This document shows, piece after piece, positions 19,338-29,211 of a stretch of DNA of 64,000 bases; position 1 is the stretch's first letter; each line of letters starts with the position of its first letter. The notes below the pieces were generated by a model. The model was not told where the DNA came from. It made no database searches and saw only the letters and a program-made list of their open reading frames with translations. Source of the DNA: Shinella granuli (lineage in GTDB: Bacteria > Pseudomonadota > Alphaproteobacteria > Rhizobiales > Rhizobiaceae); assembly GCF_004341885.1 (NCBI RefSeq), contig NZ_SLVX01000009.1, positions 124,001 to 188,000 on the forward strand. The letters run 5' to 3'. A program made the translations under genes and the position numbers.

Positions 19338-19853
19338 TCATGCGGGATAGACGCGCTTCGAAACGAACCGGTGATAGAGCCAGGCAAGAAGAACAAGGGC
19401 TCCGGTTCCCGCGGCGATCGGCAGAAGCAGGAAAGACCAGCCTGCGCCGGCAAGGATGACAACCAAGGGATTGCCCCCGGCCGGCGGATGAAGCGTATCG
19501 GTGAACTGCATGAGCGCAATGGCAAGACCGACGCCGAGCCCCATGGCGACGACACCGTTGCCGAGGAACGTCAGGACAAGCAGGCCGACAAGCGCGGAGA
19601 TCAGGTGGCCACCGATGACGTTCCGCGGCCGTGCAAGCGGGCTTTGCGGCAAGGCGAAGAGAAGAACGCAGCTTGCTCCAAATGGTGCGATCAAGAGAAC
19701 CTGGCCCAGATTCTCCGTCAGCACGGCAAGCAACCAGATTGCGAACGCGCCACCGAGGCCTGACGCGAGGGCGGGAATCGCACTCCTCCTGATATGGAGG
19801 AGAAGCGCCTGCGTCCCGGAAACGGGCCTGACGGCTTCCATACCTGGCGACAT
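19338..19853 (-). CDS. HPP family integral membrane protein
   Basis: 171 residues with four or so membrane helices. It contains the family signature TDTLHPPAGGNPL between helices. HPP proteins are small membrane proteins; some plant and cyanobacterial members transport nitrite, but the bacterial role is largely unknown. A strong GAGGAGG site precedes the ATG at 19853. It lies downstream of fdh on the same strand but is separated from it by a good terminator, so it probably has its own promoter. Confidence 0.85.
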   Translation of the reverse strand: MSPGMEAVRPVSGTQALLLHIRRSAIPALASGLGGAFAIWLLAVLTENLGQVLLIAPFGASCVLLFALPQSPLARPRNVIGGHLISALVGLLVLTFLGNGVVAMGLGVGLAIALMQFTDTLHPPAGGNPLVVILAGAGWSFLLLPIAAGTGALVLLAWLYHRFVSKRVYPA

Positions 19854-19912: not shown

Positions 19913-21118
19913 TCAATTGGCCTTCTTGAACTTGACCGCCTCTTCGGAGCCACCGGTCGCATTGCCCTTCGAATAGGAATGCGCGCCGACACCGGCCAGG
20001 GCTCCGCCCTGCGCGATCAGATATTCGTTGCGGATCGGCCGACCCTCGAAGAAGCATTCGAGGATTTCGCGCGTGCCGGCCGCGTAACGGGCCTGCGCCG
20101 AGAGCGAGGTGCCCGAGATATGCGGCGTCATGGCGTTGTTCGGGGCCGTTCGCCAGGGATGATCCTTGGGCGCCGGCTGCGGGAACCAGACATCGCCGCC
20201 GTACCCGGCCAGGTGGCCGCTCACCAGCGCGCGCGCAACGGCGTCCCGGTCGCAGAGCTTGCCGCGTGCGGTATTGACGAGATAGGCGCCGCGCTTGAAG
20301 AGCTTCAGCGTCTCCGCGTTGATCATGTTCTCCGTCTCGGGATGCAGCGGGCAATTCAGCGTCACGATATCGCAGGCCGGATACATGTCTTCCCGCGTCT
20401 CGTGCCAGATCAGGCCCAGTTCCAGCTCGACCTCGCGCGGCAGGCGGTGGCGGTCGGTATAGTGGAGATGCATGCCGAACGGTTTCAGCCGGCGCAGAAC
20501 CGCAAGACCGATACGGCCGGCGGCCACCGTGCCGACATGCATGCCTTCGATGTCGTAGGAGCGGGCGCCGCAATCGGCGATGTTCCAGCCGCCGTTCACC
20601 GCCCAGGCATGCGACGGCGTATAGTTGCGCACGAGGTTGAGGGCGGTCATCACCACATGCTCGGCCACGCTGATGGAGTTGCAGAACGTGACCTCCGCGA
20701 CGGTGATGCCGCGGTCGATGGCGGCCTGCAGGTCGACGTGGTCCGAACCGATGCCGGCCGTGAGCGCCAGCTTCAGCTTCGGCGCCTTGGCGATGCGTTC
20801 GGCCGTCAGATAGGCGGGCCAGAAGGGTTGGGAGATCACGACGTCCGCGTCGGCCAGTTCCTCCTCGAACCGGGATTCCGGCCCGTCCTTGTCGGAGGTC
20901 ACGACAAAGGTATGACCGTTCGATTCCAGATAGTTGCGCAGGCCAAGCTCGCCGGACACGCAACCCAGCAGGCTTCCCGGAACGAAGTCGATCGCCTTCG
21001 GCGTCGGCAGGGTCTGCCCGTCGGCATAGCGTTCGATGACCGGCAGGGATTCACGCGCATAGCCGGTCGGATAACCGTCGATCGGATCGTCGTAAAGGAC
21101 GCACACTACTTTGGCCAT
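19913..21118 (-). CDS. fdh: NAD-dependent, metal-free formate dehydrogenase
   Basis: 401 residues, the same length as the Pseudomonas sp. 101 enzyme. Catalytic residues appear at positions one higher than in that reference: N147, R285 (NTARGKL), Q314 and H333 (TPHISG). The Rossmann motif is VGTVAAGRIG, and Asp222 after strand 2 (HYTDRHRLP) indicates NAD rather than NADP. It oxidises formate to CO2 in the cytoplasm and needs no molybdenum, tungsten or iron-sulfur cluster. ATG 21118 is preceded by AAAGGAAA. An LysR gene lies upstream on the same strand and is the obvious regulator. A terminator follows. Confidence 0.95.
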   Translation of the reverse strand: MAKVVCVLYDDPIDGYPTGYARESLPVIERYADGQTLPTPKAIDFVPGSLLGCVSGELGLRNYLESNGHTFVVTSDKDGPESRFEEELADADVVISQPFWPAYLTAERIAKAPKLKLALTAGIGSDHVDLQAAIDRGITVAEVTFCNSISVAEHVVMTALNLVRNYTPSHAWAVNGGWNIADCGARSYDIEGMHVGTVAAGRIGLAVLRRLKPFGMHLHYTDRHRLPREVELELGLIWHETREDMYPACDIVTLNCPLHPETENMINAETLKLFKRGAYLVNTARGKLCDRDAVARALVSGHLAGYGGDVWFPQPAPKDHPWRTAPNNAMTPHISGTSLSAQARYAAGTREILECFFEGRPIRNEYLIAQGGALAGVGAHSYSKGNATGGSEEAVKFKKAN

Positions 21119-21512
21119 GACATTTCCTTTCTGAACTTGAGACAACCAGAGACCTCCCGCACGCGTGCCGCGTACGGGTCAAAGGCCTGCTCGGTACGAT
21201 CAGGCACGCCGGCCGGTGACCGGCGAGATGCGGGGTTCCTCCTGGAGGCCTCGGGTTAAGAGGTATCTCTTTGACACGGGCATCTTGCATGGCAGCCGAT
21301 GCGACATCCAATGGATGTTTTTTACGAATCCATAGGCGATGCCGATGAAGTTGCAGCGCAGCAATAAGCAACTTCAATGCCGGTCAGGAAATTTGCCCGC
21401 AACTGGCGATCGGGGGACCGCAACGCCCCGCGGACACAATGGGCGCCTCCACGGAACACCGCGAGTCGGCCACGCGCAGCATCATGGATCTTGAACTCCC
21501 TGTGGTGCGCCG
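21119..21512 (-). promoter_or_regulatory. fdh upstream region with three inverted repeats
   Basis: 394 bases with no gene, between the LysR stop and the fdh start. Three perfect inverted repeats are visible: AAGAG-GTAT-CTCTT at 21258-21271; ATGGAT with ATCCAT at 21311-21333 (11-base spacer); and TGAAGTTGC with GCAACTTCA at 21346-21376 (13-base spacer). The clustering 140-260 bases ahead of the start codon suits LysR recognition and activation sites for fdh. Function is inferred from position only. Confidence 0.45.
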
Positions 21513-22511
21513 TCATCGGCCCTCCCCGACGACACCCAGCTTTCGGCCCTTCCGGCCGTGTTCTTGCATCGCGGCGTCCCGCAAGGGTCCAGTGCCTCCG
21601 CCGAAGGCACGATCGAAATGCCCTTCGATATCGGCGCGCTCCACACAGTCCTGGAGCGCCAGGACCATCGGCGATTGCGGCAGACGGTCGGCGAGCACGA
21701 GGCCGATCGCCTGATGGTGAACCGGATCGACCATGTCGAGAAGGACCAGGTCGTCCGCACGGCCGAAGACGAAGCCAAAGGTGTGGGGCACGATCGCGCA
21801 CCACAATCCGCGGCGCAGATGCGAAGCAACGCCGAGGAAGGAGTTGCTGACCACCTTCGGCCGAAGCTCCACTCCGGCGCCTGCGGCAATCCCGTTGAGG
21901 ATACGCCTGTTCTGCATATCGTCGGACAACAGGCACAGCGGCTGCGTCACCGCCTCCGCCCAGCGCACGGTCTGCGCCTTCGCCAGGGGATGGTCGGACC
22001 GGCATGCGAAAACGTAGCGCTCCCGGTAGAGCGGAAAGCGCCGGACATTGTCGAGCGGTTCGTTGTCGAGATAGGTCAGGCCGCCATCGATCTCGAAGGT
22101 CTCCAGCGATTTCTCGATCGCCCGTGACGACATCGAGCGGATCTCGATCTGGACCAGCGGATTGCGATCTTCGAACTGCTCGGTGACGAAGGAGACCGAT
22201 GGCATGGCCGCAGGGATAACGCCGAGCCGCAACGTGCCGGTCAGCCCGCCCTTCTTCTTGCCCCTGAGGTCATCGTGCAGGCTTTCGTAGTCGGCAAGGA
22301 TCTGCCTCCCCCAGCGCAGGACCTTTTCGCCTTCGGCGGTCAGCGAAAGGAAGCGGTGACCCCGGACGATCAGGGAAAGGTTCAAATCCTCCTCGAGCTT
22401 TCGAATGGCCTGCGACAGCGTCGGCTGCGTGACGCTGCACAGCTCCGCCGCCCGCCCGAAATGCTGCTCTTCGGCGAGCGTCACGAAAAACTTCAGATGC
22501 CTGATCAGCAT
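21513..22511 (-). CDS. LysR-family regulator, probable activator of fdh
   Basis: 332 residues. The N-terminal winged HTH is MLIRHLKFFVTLAEEQHFGRAAELCSVTQPTLSQAIRKLEEDL, shown here by its ends: it starts MLIRHLKFF and ends QAIRKLEEDL. An effector-binding domain follows (about 95-300). I chose ATG 22511, the classic LysR start with GGGA upstream, over a longer frame. It lies upstream of and co-directional with fdh. Its own promoter region contains the 30-bp Mo-box-like palindrome 130 bases before the start, so its expression may depend on molybdate. Confidence 0.88.
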   Translation of the reverse strand: MLIRHLKFFVTLAEEQHFGRAAELCSVTQPTLSQAIRKLEEDLNLSLIVRGHRFLSLTAEGEKVLRWGRQILADYESLHDDLRGKKKGGLTGTLRLGVIPAAMPSVSFVTEQFEDRNPLVQIEIRSMSSRAIEKSLETFEIDGGLTYLDNEPLDNVRRFPLYRERYVFACRSDHPLAKAQTVRWAEAVTQPLCLLSDDMQNRRILNGIAAGAGVELRPKVVSNSFLGVASHLRRGLWCAIVPHTFGFVFGRADDLVLLDMVDPVHHQAIGLVLADRLPQSPMVLALQDCVERADIEGHFDRAFGGGTGPLRDAAMQEHGRKGRKLGVVGEGR

Positions 22512-22640
22512 TAGCGCGTCCCGTATCGTTTCTCGCGTCATCGATCGGAGAGCCGAACGGACTTCCGCCCGGTCGCGGCCGCCAGCCTCAAGCGGCTGGG
22601 CTCGGCGCCGCACGCCACCGCATCGATATCGCTCTTTTCA

Positions 22641-22670
22641 AATCGTTATATTTCATGAAATATAACGATT
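22641..22670. promoter_or_regulatory. Perfect 30-bp palindrome matching the ModE Mo-box
   Basis: Each 15-base half is the exact reverse complement of the other. The layout is ATCGTTATATT, six bases (TCATGA), then AATATAACGAT, with one more matching A/T pair outside. The known ModE operator pattern is ATCGNTATATA-N6-TATATAACGAT, so all defining positions except the innermost pair agree. It is AT-rich in very GC-rich DNA and sits between the starts of the LysR gene and the NUDIX gene. TATAAC, usable as a -10 element, occurs in both directions inside it. Molybdate-bound ModE or a Mop-type homologue would be expected to block RNA polymerase here. Confidence 0.8.
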
Positions 22671-22751: not shown

Positions 22752-23201
22752 ATGCAGGAAGAAATCCGGATCGCGGTCGCGCTCATCATCCGAGAAAACG
22801 GCGACACGCTTCTCGTGCGCAAGCGCGGCGGGCCGCAATTCATGCAGGCCGGCGGCAGGATCGCGGGCACCGAAACGCCGAAGGCGACGCTTGCCCGGAG
22901 ATTGCGCGAGGAACTGAGCCTCGACATTCCGCCGGCGCGCATGGCGCCCTTCGGCTGTTTCGAAGCGGAGGCGGCCGACGAAACGGACCACCTCCTCGTC
23001 GCCTATGTATTCAGGGTCCAGCTCGAAGACGAGATCATCGCGCCGACCTGCGAGATCGACGAGGCGAGGTGGATGCCGATCCATGACGCGCCGACACTGC
23101 CGCTCGCCCCGCTCACACGCAACCACATCCTCACCCTGTACTGGCAGATGCAGTTCGGAACGGATCTGCCCCATCAGCAAGGCCGAGAAGCCGCGGCCTG
23201 A
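22752..23201 (+). CDS. NUDIX hydrolase
   Basis: 149 residues. The NUDIX box appears as GGRIAGTETPKATLARRLRE and EEL; it keeps the leading Gly, the first Glu and the REE core, but RE reads RR and the final Gly is Ser, so it is slightly degenerate. The family hydrolyses nucleoside diphosphates linked to another group. ATG 22752 is chosen; GAAGGG lies about 13 bases upstream, a little far. It is the first gene after the Mo-box-like palindrome and is followed 27 bases later by the DUF2325 gene, probably in the same transcript. Confidence 0.82.
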   Translation: MQEEIRIAVALIIRENGDTLLVRKRGGPQFMQAGGRIAGTETPKATLARRLREELSLDIPPARMAPFGCFEAEAADETDHLLVAYVFRVQLEDEIIAPTCEIDEARWMPIHDAPTLPLAPLTRNHILTLYWQMQFGTDLPHQQGREAAA

Positions 23202-23228: not shown

Positions 23229-24440
23229 ATGCCGAGCCTGCCCCGCCTGACATCTCCGCAACCGGGCCCTTCGGGCGTTTTCCTGCCCCTGCAAGCGCCT
23301 GCGGCCAAAGCCGGCTCGCAGCGCCTGCGGACATGGGACATCCCCACGACGTTCCACTGCTCGATCATCGGCACATGCCTGACCGCCGGCGAACTCCGCC
23401 AGATTCTCGTCAAGGCCGGACAGGAGGACGCACGCACCGCGACAGACCATGCCCTGCACGGGCGCGGCGTGCGTCTTGCCGGCCAGCGCGACCACGCGGC
23501 AAAGCTGCTCAACAAGGCGCTCGACAAGCGCCACGAAAGCGCCATCAAGCGCATTCCCCGCCAGGCGGACGAGGCGGCGTTGCGCAGCATCTGGCGGGAA
23601 TCCTTCGACCGTGGCGACATCGCCGGCCCCTACTGGGCGCTGATGAGCCATCCGGGCAGCCCGCAGGCGCTGATCCGCGATATCTTCGGCGAGGTGCATA
23701 TGCTTTCGCACCTTGTCGGCAGCGCGAGCCGCCTCGACATCGCCCGCCTGACACGGCTGGAAAAGGACCTCGCGCTTGCGCATGAGAAGAGCGAACGCCA
23801 GGAGCAGCGGCTGAGGACGGCCGCCGACGAGCGTGTCGCCTTGCAGCAGCGCATCCGGCAGCTAGAGGAAAAGCTGGTACAGGCCCAAGCATCCGCCGCC
23901 GCTTCTCGCCAGGCATCCCCCGCAACCGGCGCGACGGACCGCGTCGAAACCGGGTCGAACCGCGCCAATACCTTCGCCGAACAGCTCGTCGCGGCCGAGG
24001 AGACCATTGGCGGCCTGCAGCGCGCCCTCGACCATTCGCAGGATCTCAGCAATGCCCTGCTTCGGGAAAACGAGGCCCTTGAGGCGATGCTTGCCGAAAG
24101 GACGAGGAGCGGGGAGAGGCAGGATGCCGTCGCGATGCCCGGACCTGTTCTCTATGTCGGCGGCCGGCGCAATCTGTTCGATCATCTGCGCGCCTGCGCG
24201 GAAAACCGAAGGGTCGATCTGCTTCTTCACGACGGCGGTATGGAAGACAGCACGACGCTCCTGCCCGCCCTCGTCGGTCAGGCGGCGACGGTTCTCTTTC
24301 CGGTCGACCACATCAGCCACACGGCTGTGGGCCTCGTGAAGCGCCTGTGCCGGGAACAGGGCAAGTCGTATCTGCCGCTTCGCTCGGCCGGCCTTGCCAG
24401 CTTCCTCGCCGCGATCACCGGCGCCTACGGCAGACTGTAA
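23229..24440 (+). CDS. DUF2325 domain protein with coiled coil
   Basis: 403 residues. A helical N-terminal half includes CSIIGTCLTAGELRQIL (about 44-60). A long charged coiled coil follows at about 175-300. The C-terminal DUF2325 domain (about 305-400) begins VLYVGGRRNLFDHLRACAE and includes LFPVDHISHTAVGLVKRLC, with the conserved His pair. The biochemical role is unknown. It is linked to the Mo-box-like site through the NUDIX gene, which suggests a part in molybdenum-limited physiology (inference). It ends 11 bases from the convergent xdhC with no clear terminator. Confidence 0.78.
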   Translation: MPSLPRLTSPQPGPSGVFLPLQAPAAKAGSQRLRTWDIPTTFHCSIIGTCLTAGELRQILVKAGQEDARTATDHALHGRGVRLAGQRDHAAKLLNKALDKRHESAIKRIPRQADEAALRSIWRESFDRGDIAGPYWALMSHPGSPQALIRDIFGEVHMLSHLVGSASRLDIARLTRLEKDLALAHEKSERQEQRLRTAADERVALQQRIRQLEEKLVQAQASAAASRQASPATGATDRVETGSNRANTFAEQLVAAEETIGGLQRALDHSQDLSNALLRENEALEAMLAERTRSGERQDAVAMPGPVLYVGGRRNLFDHLRACAENRRVDLLLHDGGMEDSTTLLPALVGQAATVLFPVDHISHTAVGLVKRLCREQGKSYLPLRSAGLASFLAAITGAYGRL

Positions 24441-24451
24441 ACGGGCTGCCG

Positions 24452-25486
24452 TCAAAGGGTGACTGTGCCGTCGCGAGAAAGACAACCGACCGGCAAGGGT
24501 TGGTTGGCGGGCTCCCAGAGCGGCAACGCAGACGCTTCGCTGCCATCCGTCAACAGGCCGGCTCCGGCTGTTGCACCCACATTCGCCTGCATGATCTCCG
24601 CCAGGATGGAGAGAGCGATGGAGGATGCGCTCTTGCCGCTCTCGAACAGGCCGGCCGGCCCGCGGATCCGGCCCAGCTTCTCCTTTTCCACACCGAAGCG
24701 CGCGAGGATATCGAGCCGGCGCTGATGGGTCTTCCGGCTGCCCATGGCGCCGACATAGAAGGCGTCCGTCTCGAGGATGAGCGGCAGCAGGTTCGTTTCC
24801 CATTCATGGTCATGGAACATCACCGCCACCGCCGTATGGCGATCCGCATGGATCACCGGCAGGCTCGCCGCGCTCGGAATCGGCACCACCTCCACGCCCG
24901 GCGTCTTCAGCACCTCTTCCCGCGTTTCCCTGTCCGGCGAATAGAGCACAACCTCGAAACCGGTGAGCAGGCCGAGCCTAGAGAGTTGAACGGCCGAAGG
25001 CCCGATGCCGGCGATGATGAGGCGCGTGCGCGGCGCGTAGATGCGGGTCAATGTCTCGGTCTCGTCGCCCGCAAGCGAAGGCACATGCATCATGGCCGGC
25101 AGACGGCGGTGCAGGCGGGAATCGATCGCAACCAGGTCCTCATCCGCGATGCCGACATCGAAAACGAGTTCGATCGCACTGCCGCAGGGAAGCTGGATAT
25201 CGAAATATTTCGAGCCGCGGCCGTAGCGCACGCGCCGGTTCTCCCCGTCCTGGATGGCGGCGATGGCCTCCGTGACCACGGCCCGCTCGATGCAGCCGCC
25301 GGAGAGATAGCCCGTCCAGCGTCCCGTCTCCGAAACCGCCATCTGCGCCCCCAGCGGACGCGGCGAGGATCCCTCGATCTGCACCAGCGTGACGATCGCG
25401 ATCCGTTCGCTGCGGCGCTTTCGGTCGATGGCAAAGTCGATGACGTAATCGTCGAACTGATCCCACGATCCGGCTGGCATCTTCAT
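24452..25486 (-). CDS. xdhC: XdhC-type Moco sulfurase/insertion factor
   Basis: 344 residues with the two-part XdhC/CoxI layout. The N-terminal domain has EGSSPRPLGAQMAV and LSGGCIERAV, which carries the conserved Cys. The C-terminal Rossmann domain has IIAGIGPSAVQLSRL, YVGAMGSRKTHQRR and GRIRGPAGL. XdhC binds molybdenum cofactor, helps its sulfuration and delivers it to xanthine-dehydrogenase-type enzymes. AGAGGAG precedes ATG 25486. It follows the fused hydrolase gene by 15 bases and must serve that enzyme. Confidence 0.9.
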   Translation of the reverse strand: MKMPAGSWDQFDDYVIDFAIDRKRRSERIAIVTLVQIEGSSPRPLGAQMAVSETGRWTGYLSGGCIERAVVTEAIAAIQDGENRRVRYGRGSKYFDIQLPCGSAIELVFDVGIADEDLVAIDSRLHRRLPAMMHVPSLAGDETETLTRIYAPRTRLIIAGIGPSAVQLSRLGLLTGFEVVLYSPDRETREEVLKTPGVEVVPIPSAASLPVIHADRHTAVAVMFHDHEWETNLLPLILETDAFYVGAMGSRKTHQRRLDILARFGVEKEKLGRIRGPAGLFESGKSASSIALSILAEIMQANVGATAGAGLLTDGSEASALPLWEPANQPLPVGCLSRDGTVTL

Positions 25487-25501: not shown

Positions 25502-28264
25502 TCAGGCAGGTTCATGAACATCGGCCGGCATCGATACCGGCGCGGGCCGCACCTCCATCGCCAACTTGTAAAGCATGTCGGCCTTGAAGGGCGTCGCGTA
25601 GAGGCGGACCCCGATCGCATCCCGAATGGCATTGCCGAGCGCCGCGGCGACCGGATTGTACGGGCTCTCGCTCATCGATTTCGCGCCAAGCGGTCCGATC
25701 CGGTCGTAAGTGTCGGCGAAGAAGACCTCGGTGCGCGGAATATCGGCGAAGGCGGGGATGTGATAGCCCCGGAAGGTCGGGTTCGTGACCCGCCCCTCCC
25801 CGTCGATCTTGAGATCCTCGTAGAGCGCGGCGCCGATCGCCTGGGCGACCCCGCCCTCCACCTGGCCACGGCACTGCATCGGGTTCATCACCGTGCCTGC
25901 ATCGGCGGCATGGACGGAGCGCAGGATGCGGATCTCGCCGTAACGGCGATGGACGGCAACCTCGAAACCCTGGACATTGAAGGCGACGGAGCGCGGCGTG
26001 CCGCCGCTGCGACCCTGCCCCGAGAGCTTTACCCCCGCCAGGGCCGCTGCCTGCGCCAGCTTCGCAAGCGGGATGCTTTGGCCCGCGGCAATCACGACGC
26101 CCTCGCCGAGCTTGCACGCCGATCGCCGGGCGCCGGCGAACGATGCCGCAAAATCGAGGAGCATGCCGGCAAGGTCCTCCGCCGCCTCCCGTGTCGCCGA
26201 GCCGGCGACGACCGTTCCGGTGCTGCCGAAGGCGCCCGTGTCATGCGAGATGTGGTCGGTGTCCGACTGCTTGATGCGCACATGGGAAAGCGTCGTGCCG
26301 AGCAGCGAGGCAACGATCTGCCCATGCACGGTCGTCGTGCCATTGCCGAACTCGGCCGTGCCGGTCTTCAGCTCGTAGGTGCCGTCCGGCAAAAGCGTGA
26401 CCCGGCTTTCGGCCCGGTGGCCGCGCGGCGGGATCGTGTCGATCATGCCGGCGGCGATGCCGCGGCCGATCAGCCAGTCGTCGGAGAGATCGGGATGCGG
26501 CCCTTTGCACAGGGCGGCTTCCACCCTGTCAAGGCACTGGTCGAGCCCGTAGCTGCCATATTCCACGTCATGCGGGCCGTCGTCCGCCGCGGTCATCGGG
26601 TCGCCCGGCACGACGACGTTGATCCGTCGGAACGCGATCGGGTCCATGCCGATCTGCCGGGCTACCTCGTCCATCGCCGATTCGATCGCGAAATTGCTCT
26701 GGCTCAGCCCATAGCCGCGAAAGGCACCGCTCGGCATTTCGTTGGTGTAGATGGCGACGGAATCGACCTTCTTGTTGGGGCAGCGGTAAAGCGCAATGCA
26801 TTCTCCCGAGCCGTGGTACATGACACCCGGTCCGTGATTGCCATAGGCGCCCGTATTGGAGAGCATGCGCATCGAAATGGCCGTCAGGCGGCCGTCCTTC
26901 TTCGCGCCGACCTTCACCGTGATCTTCATCGGATGCCGGCTGGTGGAGGCGGAAAACTGTTCCATACGCGTATATTCGAGCTTCACCGGGCGCCCGGTCT
27001 TGAAAACGGCGAGCGCCACGATGTCCTCGGTGATCATCTCCTGCTTGCCGCCGAAACCGCCGCCGACGCGCTCGGCGAAGACCCGGATCTTGTCCTGCGG
27101 CAGGTCGAAGAGGGCACACAGCGCGTCGCGCGTCAGGAACGGCACCTGCGTGCTGGTGCGCATGTTGAGTCGCCCGTCGCCGTCGAGCCAGCCGATGGCG
27201 CCATGGGTTTCGAGATGGGCGTGCTGCACGCGCTGGATATGGTAGGTGCCCTCGTGGATGGCGTCCGCCTCGGCAAAACCCGCCTCGACATCGCCGAGAT
27301 GCCCATGCAGTTCGGCGACGATATTGCGCTGCGGATTGGCGATGCGGGACGAGAGGGGCTTGTCATGCACGACATGCGCACCGGGCTTCAGGGCGTCCTC
27401 CGGATCGAAGACAGCGGGCAGCAGTTCATATTCGACCGCAATCAGCTTGCAGCCGGCCTCGGCGATCCCCTCGCTTTCCGCAATGACGGCTGCAACCCGC
27501 TGGCCGATATGGCGGACGATCGGATCTAGCACCAGCGTGTCGTCGGGGTCGTCCGTATACATCTCGTGGCGCGCGGTGGAGAAATAGCGATCCGGCGCAT
27601 CCTCGTGGGTCAGCACCGCGACGACGCCCGGCAGCGCAAGCGCGGCGCGCGCATCGATGGAAACGATGCGCGCGGACGGATGCGGCGCACGCAGGATCTT
27701 CATATGGGTGAGGCCGGCCAGGTCACCGACGGGCGCGACATCCATCGTGTAACGCACACGGCCGGTCACGACGCCAGGCCCAGCAGGGGCCGCGAGATTG
27801 CGGCCGCACGCCTCGCCTGCGCCGACGCGCTCGACATGCTTCACGCCTTCTATGGCATCCGCAATCGCCCGGTAGCCGGTGCAACGGCACAGGTTGCCCT
27901 TGAGCGCGGCCGGCAGGTCACGGCGCTGGGCCTGGTCGAGCGCCGCCGCCGTCATGATCGCGCCGGCCGTGCAGAAGCCGCACTGGAAACCCTGCGCGTC
28001 GAGAAAGGACTGCTGCACCGGATGCAGGTCGTCCGGCGATCCGAGCCCCTCGATCGTCGTCACCTCCAAGCCTTCGGCACGAAATGCCGGCACCAGGCAG
28101 CTATGCACCGGCCGGCCGTCGAGGTGGACGGTGCAGGCACCGCAGTCGCCCGCATCGCACCCCTTCTTGACCCCGAAACAGCCGAGGTCGCGCAGGAAGG
28201 TGCGCAGGCACTGGCCCGGACGGGGCGTTGCCCCATGCTCCACGCCGTTTACGAGATAGGTCAT
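25502..28264 (-). CDS. Molybdenum hydroxylase, fused [2Fe-2S] and Moco subunits (XdhD-like)
   Basis: 920 residues. Residues 1-160 are a ferredoxin-type domain with two cluster sites: C36, C41, C44, C56 and C95, C98, C126, C128 (CGFC, CRCTGY). The rest is the molybdopterin-binding part with ERVGGGFGGKQE, GAFRGYGLSQ and, near the C-terminus, GAKSMSESPYNP, where the Glu takes the place of the catalytic Glu. Usually these are separate proteins; the fusion resembles E. coli XdhD, a putative hypoxanthine oxidase. The substrate is likely a purine or other N-heterocycle but is unproven. ATGA overlap (28261-28264) couples it to the FAD subunit. Confidence 0.9.
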   Translation of the reverse strand: MTYLVNGVEHGATPRPGQCLRTFLRDLGCFGVKKGCDAGDCGACTVHLDGRPVHSCLVPAFRAEGLEVTTIEGLGSPDDLHPVQQSFLDAQGFQCGFCTAGAIMTAAALDQAQRRDLPAALKGNLCRCTGYRAIADAIEGVKHVERVGAGEACGRNLAAPAGPGVVTGRVRYTMDVAPVGDLAGLTHMKILRAPHPSARIVSIDARAALALPGVVAVLTHEDAPDRYFSTARHEMYTDDPDDTLVLDPIVRHIGQRVAAVIAESEGIAEAGCKLIAVEYELLPAVFDPEDALKPGAHVVHDKPLSSRIANPQRNIVAELHGHLGDVEAGFAEADAIHEGTYHIQRVQHAHLETHGAIGWLDGDGRLNMRTSTQVPFLTRDALCALFDLPQDKIRVFAERVGGGFGGKQEMITEDIVALAVFKTGRPVKLEYTRMEQFSASTSRHPMKITVKVGAKKDGRLTAISMRMLSNTGAYGNHGPGVMYHGSGECIALYRCPNKKVDSVAIYTNEMPSGAFRGYGLSQSNFAIESAMDEVARQIGMDPIAFRRINVVVPGDPMTAADDGPHDVEYGSYGLDQCLDRVEAALCKGPHPDLSDDWLIGRGIAAGMIDTIPPRGHRAESRVTLLPDGTYELKTGTAEFGNGTTTVHGQIVASLLGTTLSHVRIKQSDTDHISHDTGAFGSTGTVVAGSATREAAEDLAGMLLDFAASFAGARRSACKLGEGVVIAAGQSIPLAKLAQAAALAGVKLSGQGRSGGTPRSVAFNVQGFEVAVHRRYGEIRILRSVHAADAGTVMNPMQCRGQVEGGVAQAIGAALYEDLKIDGEGRVTNPTFRGYHIPAFADIPRTEVFFADTYDRIGPLGAKSMSESPYNPVAAALGNAIRDAIGVRLYATPFKADMLYKLAMEVRPAPVSMPADVHEPA

Positions 28265-29157
28265 GGCCGTCCTCCGAGTTCGAGCCGGATCTCTTCCGCG
28301 AAGACATGCGTCATGTGCCGGCGCCAGTCGGGCAGGCCGTGGATGTCGTCGTAGTAGAGCGCCTCGGGAATTTCGGCTTCCAGGCGGCGCACGAGCTCCC
28401 TCTCGCCCGGAAGAGCGGCGAAAGCGAGCCGGACCGGGCGCCGCGTCGACGCCGTTACCGTGAGGACGAATTCCCCCCGGCTCGCAAGCGTTCCGATGAG
28501 AAGCACGCCGGAACGGCCGAGCGGCGTGAGGCTCGCGCGGCGAAAGGCCGTGCGGCGCGCCAGCGCTTGCCAGGGCAGGCTGATGCTGCGCAGGATCTCG
28601 CCCGGCCGCAGGTCGTTGCTGAGCGGCCCCTTCACGAAATCGACCACCGGAACCCTTCGCTCGGAACCATCCGGCGACCAGATGGTGCAGACGCCGTCGA
28701 GCGCCGCCGTCAGCGAGATCATCGGACCAGCCGGCAGCGACATGCAGAGATTGCCGCCGACCGTCGCCATGTTCCAGATCTTGAAGGAGGCGAGGAACGA
28801 GCGGCAGCACGTTCCGATCAGCCGCGCCGCCGGCCAGGCGACCGGCGGTTCGAAGGCATCGAGCGTCGCCACCTTGCATGTCGCCGCAATCGAGAGGCCC
28901 GCATCGCTGGCAACAAGGGGCTGCCAGCCGAGATCGGAAAGGTCGACCAGCCGGGAGAGCTTCGGCTGCGGCTCGGAAAACAGCCAGGTCCCGCCGCCGA
29001 GCCAGGCATCGCCCTCGCAAAACGGCCAGAGTTCGGCGCGCTCGCGCGGCCTCCTGACGGCGGTGATGGTGTTGATGTCCAAGGCGGCAGCTCCGGTGCG
29101 AATGGCGGCGTCCCGTGCCGCGCCATCACTGTCGCGCATCGCAACTGATCTTGCCAT
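28261..29157 (-). CDS. FAD-binding subunit of molybdenum hydroxylase
   Basis: About 298 residues of the CoxM/XdhB/YgfM family. FAD-binding segments are visible as GDAWLGGGTWLFSE and NMATVGGNLCMSLPAGPM. It passes electrons from the iron-sulfur domain encoded next to the final acceptor. The start is uncertain: ATG 29157 is used; ATG 29139 is 6 codons shorter and ATG 29196 is 13 longer. None has a good ribosome site. It is the first gene of the three-gene hydroxylase operon and is divergent from an LysR gene about 55 bases away. Confidence 0.85.
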   Translation of the reverse strand: MARSVAMRDSDGAARDAAIRTGAAALDINTITAVRRPRERAELWPFCEGDAWLGGGTWLFSEPQPKLSRLVDLSDLGWQPLVASDAGLSIAATCKVATLDAFEPPVAWPAARLIGTCCRSFLASFKIWNMATVGGNLCMSLPAGPMISLTAALDGVCTIWSPDGSERRVPVVDFVKGPLSNDLRPGEILRSISLPWQALARRTAFRRASLTPLGRSGVLLIGTLASRGEFVLTVTASTRRPVRLAFAALPGERELVRRLEAEIPEALYYDDIHGLPDWRRHMTHVFAEEIRLELGGRP

Positions 29158-29211
29158 TTCCAATTCAAGAGCAGATTGTTGCCGGAAAGGCATCAATGGA
29201 ATGCATCGCCC

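Follow-up and report, generated by a model that had tools for sequence, protein, structure and literature searches.

A perfect Mo-box-like palindrome as a probable shared ModE operator between the divergent lysR-formate dehydrogenase and NUDIX-DUF2325 genes of Shinella granuli

In the 64-kb window analysed here (the whole stretch of 64,000 nucleotides of Shinella granuli DNA), a perfect palindrome is probably a ModE operator common to two divergent units; the short regulator ModE(S) would repress both when molybdenum is plentiful, and starvation would bring about the synthesis of a LysR-family regulator and, through it, of a molybdenum-free (Mo-free) formate dehydrogenase, together with that of a NUDIX-DUF2325 pair. 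As judged from sequence comparison, the single symmetric box of the window is one standing between two units, each of which is found under such a box elsewhere. The site and the genes around it are the following (positions of the window):

22641..22670, no strand: perfect palindrome AATCGTTATATTTCA/TGAAATATAACGATT, with 100% complementary arms of 15 nt that abut directly
22642-22669: Mo-box core, 28 bp, ATCGTTATAT-N8-ATATAACGAT
21513..22511, minus strand: LysR-family regulator, 332 aa (PF00126 69.6 bits, PF03466 107.3 bits)
21329..21349, minus strand: candidate LysR-type dyad (degenerate TTGATnGnC..GnCnATCAA), 231 nt before fdh
19913..21118, minus strand: Mo-free NAD-dependent formate dehydrogenase (fdh), 401 aa from ATG 21118 (NF005750 687 bits, cut-off 329)
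19338..19853, minus strand: HPP-family membrane protein after fdh (PF04982 160.9 bits)
22752..23201, plus strand: NUDIX hydrolase, 149 aa, first plus-side gene (PF00293 55.1 bits)
23229..24440, plus strand: DUF2325 protein, 403 aa (PF10087 53 bits against a gathering threshold of 33.6, residues 307-396)
24452..25486, minus strand: XdhC/CoxI-family protein, convergent with the DUF2325 gene (PF02625 77.5 bits, PF13478 97.5 bits)
25502..29196, minus strand: xanthine dehydrogenase/aldehyde oxidase-type molybdenum hydroxylase genes (context)

The initial annotation, made from the sequence, had described a perfect 30-bp palindrome with complementary halves, which holds over 15 + 15 bp, and had placed it correctly between the starts of a LysR gene and of a NUDIX-DUF2325 pair, with a Mo-free formate dehydrogenase gene downstream of the former, as the NAD-dependent formate dehydrogenase model (687 bits) confirms. 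The palindrome is 80% A+T against 35% for the whole window, and no other zero-gap palindrome of the window has an arm longer than 9 nt, against 15 nt here; in a simulated control (2 Mb of first-order Markov sequence matched in composition), the longest such arm was 11 nt. It lies in the sole intergenic gap between the divergent genes, its edges being 129 nt from the likely LysR start (ATG 22511; an upstream GTG at 22613 is possible) and 81 nt from the NUDIX start (ATG 22752, which aligns with those of the related loci L033, L035 and L036). In the hydroxylase genes further along, the domains MoCoBD_1 (281.9 bits), MoCoBD_2, Ald_Xan_dh_C and Fer2_2 are found in 25502-29020, and FAD_binding_5 in 28261-29196.

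The palindrome agrees at 19/22 positions with the ModE consensus ATCGCTATATA-N6-TATATAACGAT, which is that of E. coli, as given in an excerpt of PMC2700814; position 11 of our alphaproteobacterial matrix is C or T, and not A as in this published consensus. With a matrix built from DUF2325 relatives, the window site scores 46.5 bits. A symmetric Mo-box pattern, ATCGNTATAT-N6..8-ATATANCGAT, has a single exact match in the 6.59-Mb genome, the window site itself, and none in the reversed control, while allowing up to 3 mismatches to the 20 fixed positions of the site returned 4 sites in the 6.59-Mb genome and, again, none in the reversed control. The near-match sites are located as follows:

L008: between a Mop-domain gene and a FecB-type binding-protein gene
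L009: before a TrmO-like gene, with a Mop-like gene (named by eye) close by
L010: before the nap genes

The modA gene is preceded, at 29 nt, by two tandem boxes that are weaker, and the L008 cluster holds an extra box before a gamma-glutamylcyclotransferase-like ORF (named by eye) followed by moeA, as well as another where a second FecB-like gene begins. When the pattern was relaxed and 3 mismatches were allowed, this genome gave 60 sites against 61 in the control, that is, no excess, so that only the near matches are meaningful; as these are found at modA, mop/Fec-type uptake genes, moeA, trmO and nap, the palindrome belongs to the ModE operator set of the genome. The genome scan proposed along with the initial annotation thus yielded sister sites at modA, mop, trmO and nap, and the ModE operator pattern that it had recognized is borne out by the consensus match, by these sister sites at molybdenum genes, and by the boxes conserved before both units in relatives (see below). 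The palindrome is, therefore, very probably a ModE operator, to judge by its sequence. That the operator itself is of the standard ModE kind is strongly indicated by comparison, and it is the physiology that we infer.

Several features of this genome deserve a mention in their own right. The region L008:3229-11124 is dense in moeA-like, FecB-type binding-protein and FecCD-like permease genes, together with a Mop protein, a ModA-like protein (SBP_bac_11) and three Mo-boxes; it is possibly a second molybdate uptake route. At L009:7059-7618 lies a TrmO/TsaA-type gene, encoding a tRNA-methyltransferase-like protein, with its own Mo-box, and such a gene recurs beside molybdenum genes in 17/80 DUF2325 loci (best 80 of 344). 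A 24-mer, GGCTATATCGACGTCAATATAGCC, occurs three times in the genome (G000 C49:15478, C60:8081 and C74:55) and is perhaps a mobile repeat resembling a Mo-box.

The reading proposed initially depended on the existence of a ModE homologue, and a ModE gene is indeed present, on contig C20 beside modABC (ModE domain E 2e-25; 91.2 bits, just below the curated cut-off of 98.5). The protein is 119 aa long, with HTH_1, a DNA-binding domain, as the sole domain found; no TOBE/Mop C-terminal domain was found on it, and a separate Mop protein is encoded in L008. It fits the short ModE(S) class, composed of the DNA-binding domain alone. A second, weak ModE match (24.3 bits) falls in a 343-aa frame. Because this ModE is short and has the DNA-binding domain only, direct sensing of molybdate by it is unlikely, and the statement of the initial annotation that ModE/Mop proteins bind molybdate probably does not apply as written. 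A parallel in layout is Agrobacterium tumefaciens ModE(S), likewise a short, HTH-only ModE beside modABC with two boxes before modA (in the present genome, the tandem boxes described above), whose activity reportedly follows the molybdenum cofactor and not molybdate.

On the plus side, the main conserved partner of the box is the DUF2325 gene. The box before NUDIX is kept in L033, L035 and L036 although the flanks have diverged. A survey of the order found a DUF2325 relative in 21/249 genomes, own genome included; the three closest (L012-L014) carry the box just upstream, and 17 more distant ones reach at most 13/20. We then took a wider sample, the best 80 of 344 DUF2325 relatives (one of which, L096, has only 179 bp upstream), covering Shinella, Rhizobium, Phyllobacterium, Methylobacterium, Rhodopila, Reyranella, Azospirillum and other genera. 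An upstream box of at least 14/20 is present in 73 of these best 80 of 344. Scored against the E. coli consensus, which is independent of the window, a box of at least 16/22 lies within 600 bp upstream in 64/80 loci, the other 16/80 scoring lower, against 26/1214 control stretches from the same loci; kinship is ignored in this comparison, and some of the control stretches contain true boxes of other molybdenum genes. A gene for ModA, ModB, ModE, MoeA or a short Mop protein lies within 6 kb in 56 of the same 80 loci; ModE itself is found in 28/80, and 26 of 29 such proteins are short (113-189 aa). The initial annotation had suggested an unusual branch of the ModE regulon with an atypical target: the target is indeed atypical, but it is no local oddity, as boxes before DUF2325 are found again and again across Alphaproteobacteria, often next to genes for molybdate uptake, moeA or modE. 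Neighbour cluster 1, considered as Mop, turned out to consist mostly of ABC-transporter ATPases (short proteins in 8 loci, long ones in 36), and a looser tally of 67/80 was dropped for the 56/80 given above. A DUF2478 protein, at L057:7170-7790, recurs in 9 DUF2325 loci in all (best 80 of 344).

In 61 of the 75 DUF2325 relatives with both a box and a recognized start, the first in-frame start codon is at most 16 nt from the box. A TTG at -24 or -27 is present in 31 of 51 non-redundant relatives outside the Shinella group, other single offsets reaching at most 5; this pattern was spotted post hoc in the alignment, and neither the window nor its near relatives show it. A promoter using that TTG as its -35 element would place the -10 element and the transcription start inside the box, which is a repressor position; the window promoter may be a weaker one, TTCAAA-N18-TATAAC, picked by eye.

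As for the DUF2325 protein, an alignment of 48 relatives shows H43, C44, G48, T49, C50, H77, H157 and H161 to be invariant. The AlphaFold2 model (mean pLDDT 85.9, pTM 0.50) is helical in its N-terminal part, continues with a long coiled region and ends in a small alpha/beta domain; Foldseek returned no match to this model in the PDB at E <= 0.001, and the matches in a profile search of PDB sequences were mostly to coiled coils. Metal binding or molybdenum handling would be our guess for its function. From its recurrence under the box, DUF2325 looks like a molybdenum-response protein that has apparently been overlooked so far; a search of the open-licence literature, subscription papers being outside its scope, found no link between DUF2325 and molybdenum.

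On the minus side, the best solved relatives of the formate dehydrogenase are the NAD-dependent formate dehydrogenases 2go1, 2gsd and 2nac. The genome also encodes a Mo-dependent formate dehydrogenase (fdsA, 964 bits, cut-off 666), and its second-best match to the LysR protein (43% identity) adjoins these fds genes; no Mo-box was found within 11 kb of fdsA and the LysR paralogue. The order contains the Mo-free enzyme in 50/397 genomes. We sampled 50 of the 55 non-window matches, leaving out three close relatives of sampled genomes and two partial matches, and found LysR adjoining fdh in 22/50 loci; an HPP-family gene stands in line behind fdh in 13 of these 22. A strict dyad, GATnG-N7-CnATC, occurs in 18/30 lysR-fdh spacers, mostly 200-260 nt before fdh, and in 0.33% of shuffles. 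The spacer of the window (21119-21512) is among the 12/30 without the strict dyad, its degenerate copy matching 11/14 positions. This conserved dyad before fdh is likely the LysR site, on the evidence of its conservation.

Does the Mo-box accompany lysR-fdh as it does DUF2325? With the matrix built from DUF2325 sites, which is independent of fdh, a box of at least 10 bits was found within 1.6 kb upstream of fdh in 14/22 lysR-linked loci against 2/28 loci without that LysR (L197, 17.1 bits at -1084 and poorly symmetric, and L227, 10.5 bits); at 16 bits or more in the same span, the counts are 11/22 against 1/28. The box stands 10-117 nt before lysR in the 14 relatives, and 10-49 nt in 13 of them, against 129 nt in the window. 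It is absent in 8/22 lysR-fdh loci, among them four genomes of one genus, so that these counts are not independent. ModE is present at E < 1e-17 in all 14 box genomes, while the 8 boxless genomes comprise 3 with a good match, 2 with weak matches in LysR-sized frames and 3 with none. The association between box and ModE has a Fisher p of 0.002 with a strict definition of ModE (5/8 boxless genomes without it), and the contrast is weaker with a lax one (any match at E <= 0.001; 5/8 boxless genomes with ModE, Fisher p = 0.036). A search of the class with LysR (48/385 genomes) turned up regulators without fdh, which we kept as a negative control: 29/29 have no box of at least 14 bits. Beyond the order, fdh was found in 7 further genomes, none with this LysR and none with a box of at least 14 bits (an AT-rich 13.9-bit match in L250 was left uncounted). 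In L051, L061 and L102, DUF2325 and lysR-fdh are adjacent, with a separate box before each, and L038 has the order box, DUF2325, lysR, fdh. The half-sites are the same across relatives, the box centres being variable.

Taken together, these observations suggest the following mechanism. When molybdenum is plentiful, which would probably be sensed as the molybdenum cofactor, ModE(S) would bind the palindrome and block transcription in both directions, and a shortage of molybdenum would lift the block. On the minus side, LysR would then be made and would switch on the Mo-free NAD-dependent formate dehydrogenase, which would take over from the Mo-dependent enzyme that the genome also encodes (fdsA and associated genes); the proposed cascade is thus repression of lysR by ModE(S) and activation of fdh by LysR. 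On the plus side, NUDIX-DUF2325 would be made, DUF2325 acting as a molybdenum-starvation protein. A swap between the Mo and Mo-free enzymes is possible given that fdsA is present in the same genome with no box within 11 kb. ModE binding, repression as opposed to activation, cofactor sensing, the ModE-LysR-fdh cascade and the replacement role are what we infer from these arrangements. We also lean, if only slightly, towards a broader proposal, in which one clade of DUF2325 would be a core alphaproteobacterial molybdenum-response protein repressed by ModE(S) through an operator lying over its promoter, in which H43, C44, C50, H77, H157 and H161 may be ligands of a metal or molybdenum species, and in which a LysR-driven swap from Mo to Mo-free formate dehydrogenase would be under ModE(S) control.

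Other readings have to be weighed. The box could serve NUDIX-DUF2325 only, lysR-fdh being adjacent by a chance of gene order and under a control of its own that we do not see: the box occupies the same position as before NUDIX in L033, L035 and L036, where no fdh lies within the span examined, 81 nt separate it from NUDIX as against 129 nt from LysR, and 8/22 lysR-fdh loci lack it. We consider this unlikely, as 14/22 lysR-fdh loci have a box of their own, including the separate ones of L051, L061 and L102, the box of the window is symmetric and in the sole intergenic gap between the units, and fdh lies near DUF2325 repeatedly (9/80 loci, best 80 of 344). One has also to consider that ModE may be an activator here, with both units rising with molybdenum. 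E. coli ModE activates some molybdoenzyme genes, XdhC and a molybdenum hydroxylase adjoin the DUF2325 gene, and the nap genes carry a box though nap needs molybdenum, so that ModE need not always repress. Activation of the two units is nevertheless improbable, since the box lies at most 16 nt from the DUF2325 start (61/75) and 10-49 nt from LysR (13/14), closer than would suit a classical upstream activator site, and producing a Mo-free enzyme at molybdenum surplus would make little sense.

Dyads in divergent gaps are common binding sites of LysR regulators, and the box precedes lysR in 14/22 loci, which might make it an autoregulatory site of the neighbouring LysR instead of a ModE site. Yet, the LysR cluster is present in just 8/80 DUF2325 loci against 73/80 for the box (best 80 of 344), the same motif stands at this genome's own modA, mop and nap, none of the 29 LysR relatives that lack fdh has a box reaching 14 bits, and a different conserved dyad precedes fdh; we find this reading very improbable. 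Finally, a perfect palindrome would fold in RNA too, and chance, an RNA hairpin or a terminator could be invoked; with an arm of 15 nt where 2 Mb of simulated sequence gave none above 11, no terminator-like site found, and half-sites recurring in relatives around variable centres, we give this explanation next to no credit.

The ModE operator shared by the two units, as we propose it, has precedents. In Rhodobacter capsulatus, MopA/MopB repress mopA-modABC, morAB and anfA via Mo-boxes, according to the available text of PMC6925177, and the same source and PMC7294313, in the parts available, describe the pattern in which MopA/MopB repress anfA, which in turn activates anf. Compared with the Mo-boxes of E. 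coli ModE and R. capsulatus MopA/MopB, the consensus is alike and the targets here are lysR-Mo-free fdh and NUDIX-DUF2325. As in anfA repression, a Mo-box precedes the gene for the activator of a Mo-free isoenzyme whose Mo counterpart is encoded in the same genome; unlike in that system, the enzyme is a formate dehydrogenase and not a nitrogenase, the activator is a LysR protein and not the AnfA enhancer-binding protein, and the case is made here from sequence alone. In the accessible parts of the literature, ModE control of Mo-free isoenzymes is documented for nitrogenase only, and our search for ModE control of a Mo-free formate dehydrogenase found none, a weak negative because "ModE" is indistinguishable from the word "mode" in searching.

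The fdh of the window is of the same enzyme family as the NAD-dependent formate dehydrogenase of Pseudomonas sp. 101, for which type we know of no regulator; reports of 1989-1991 are said to describe such enzymes as made only without molybdenum. If the proposal is true, ModE control of Mo-free isoenzymes would extend from nitrogenase to formate oxidation, and DUF2325, a family of no assigned function, would gain a pathway. A mechanism would also be at hand for the production of formate dehydrogenase without molybdenum, in an enzyme family widely used in biotechnology: the formate dehydrogenase swap would be the counterpart of the nitrogenase swap and would explain why such enzymes appear when molybdenum is lacking.
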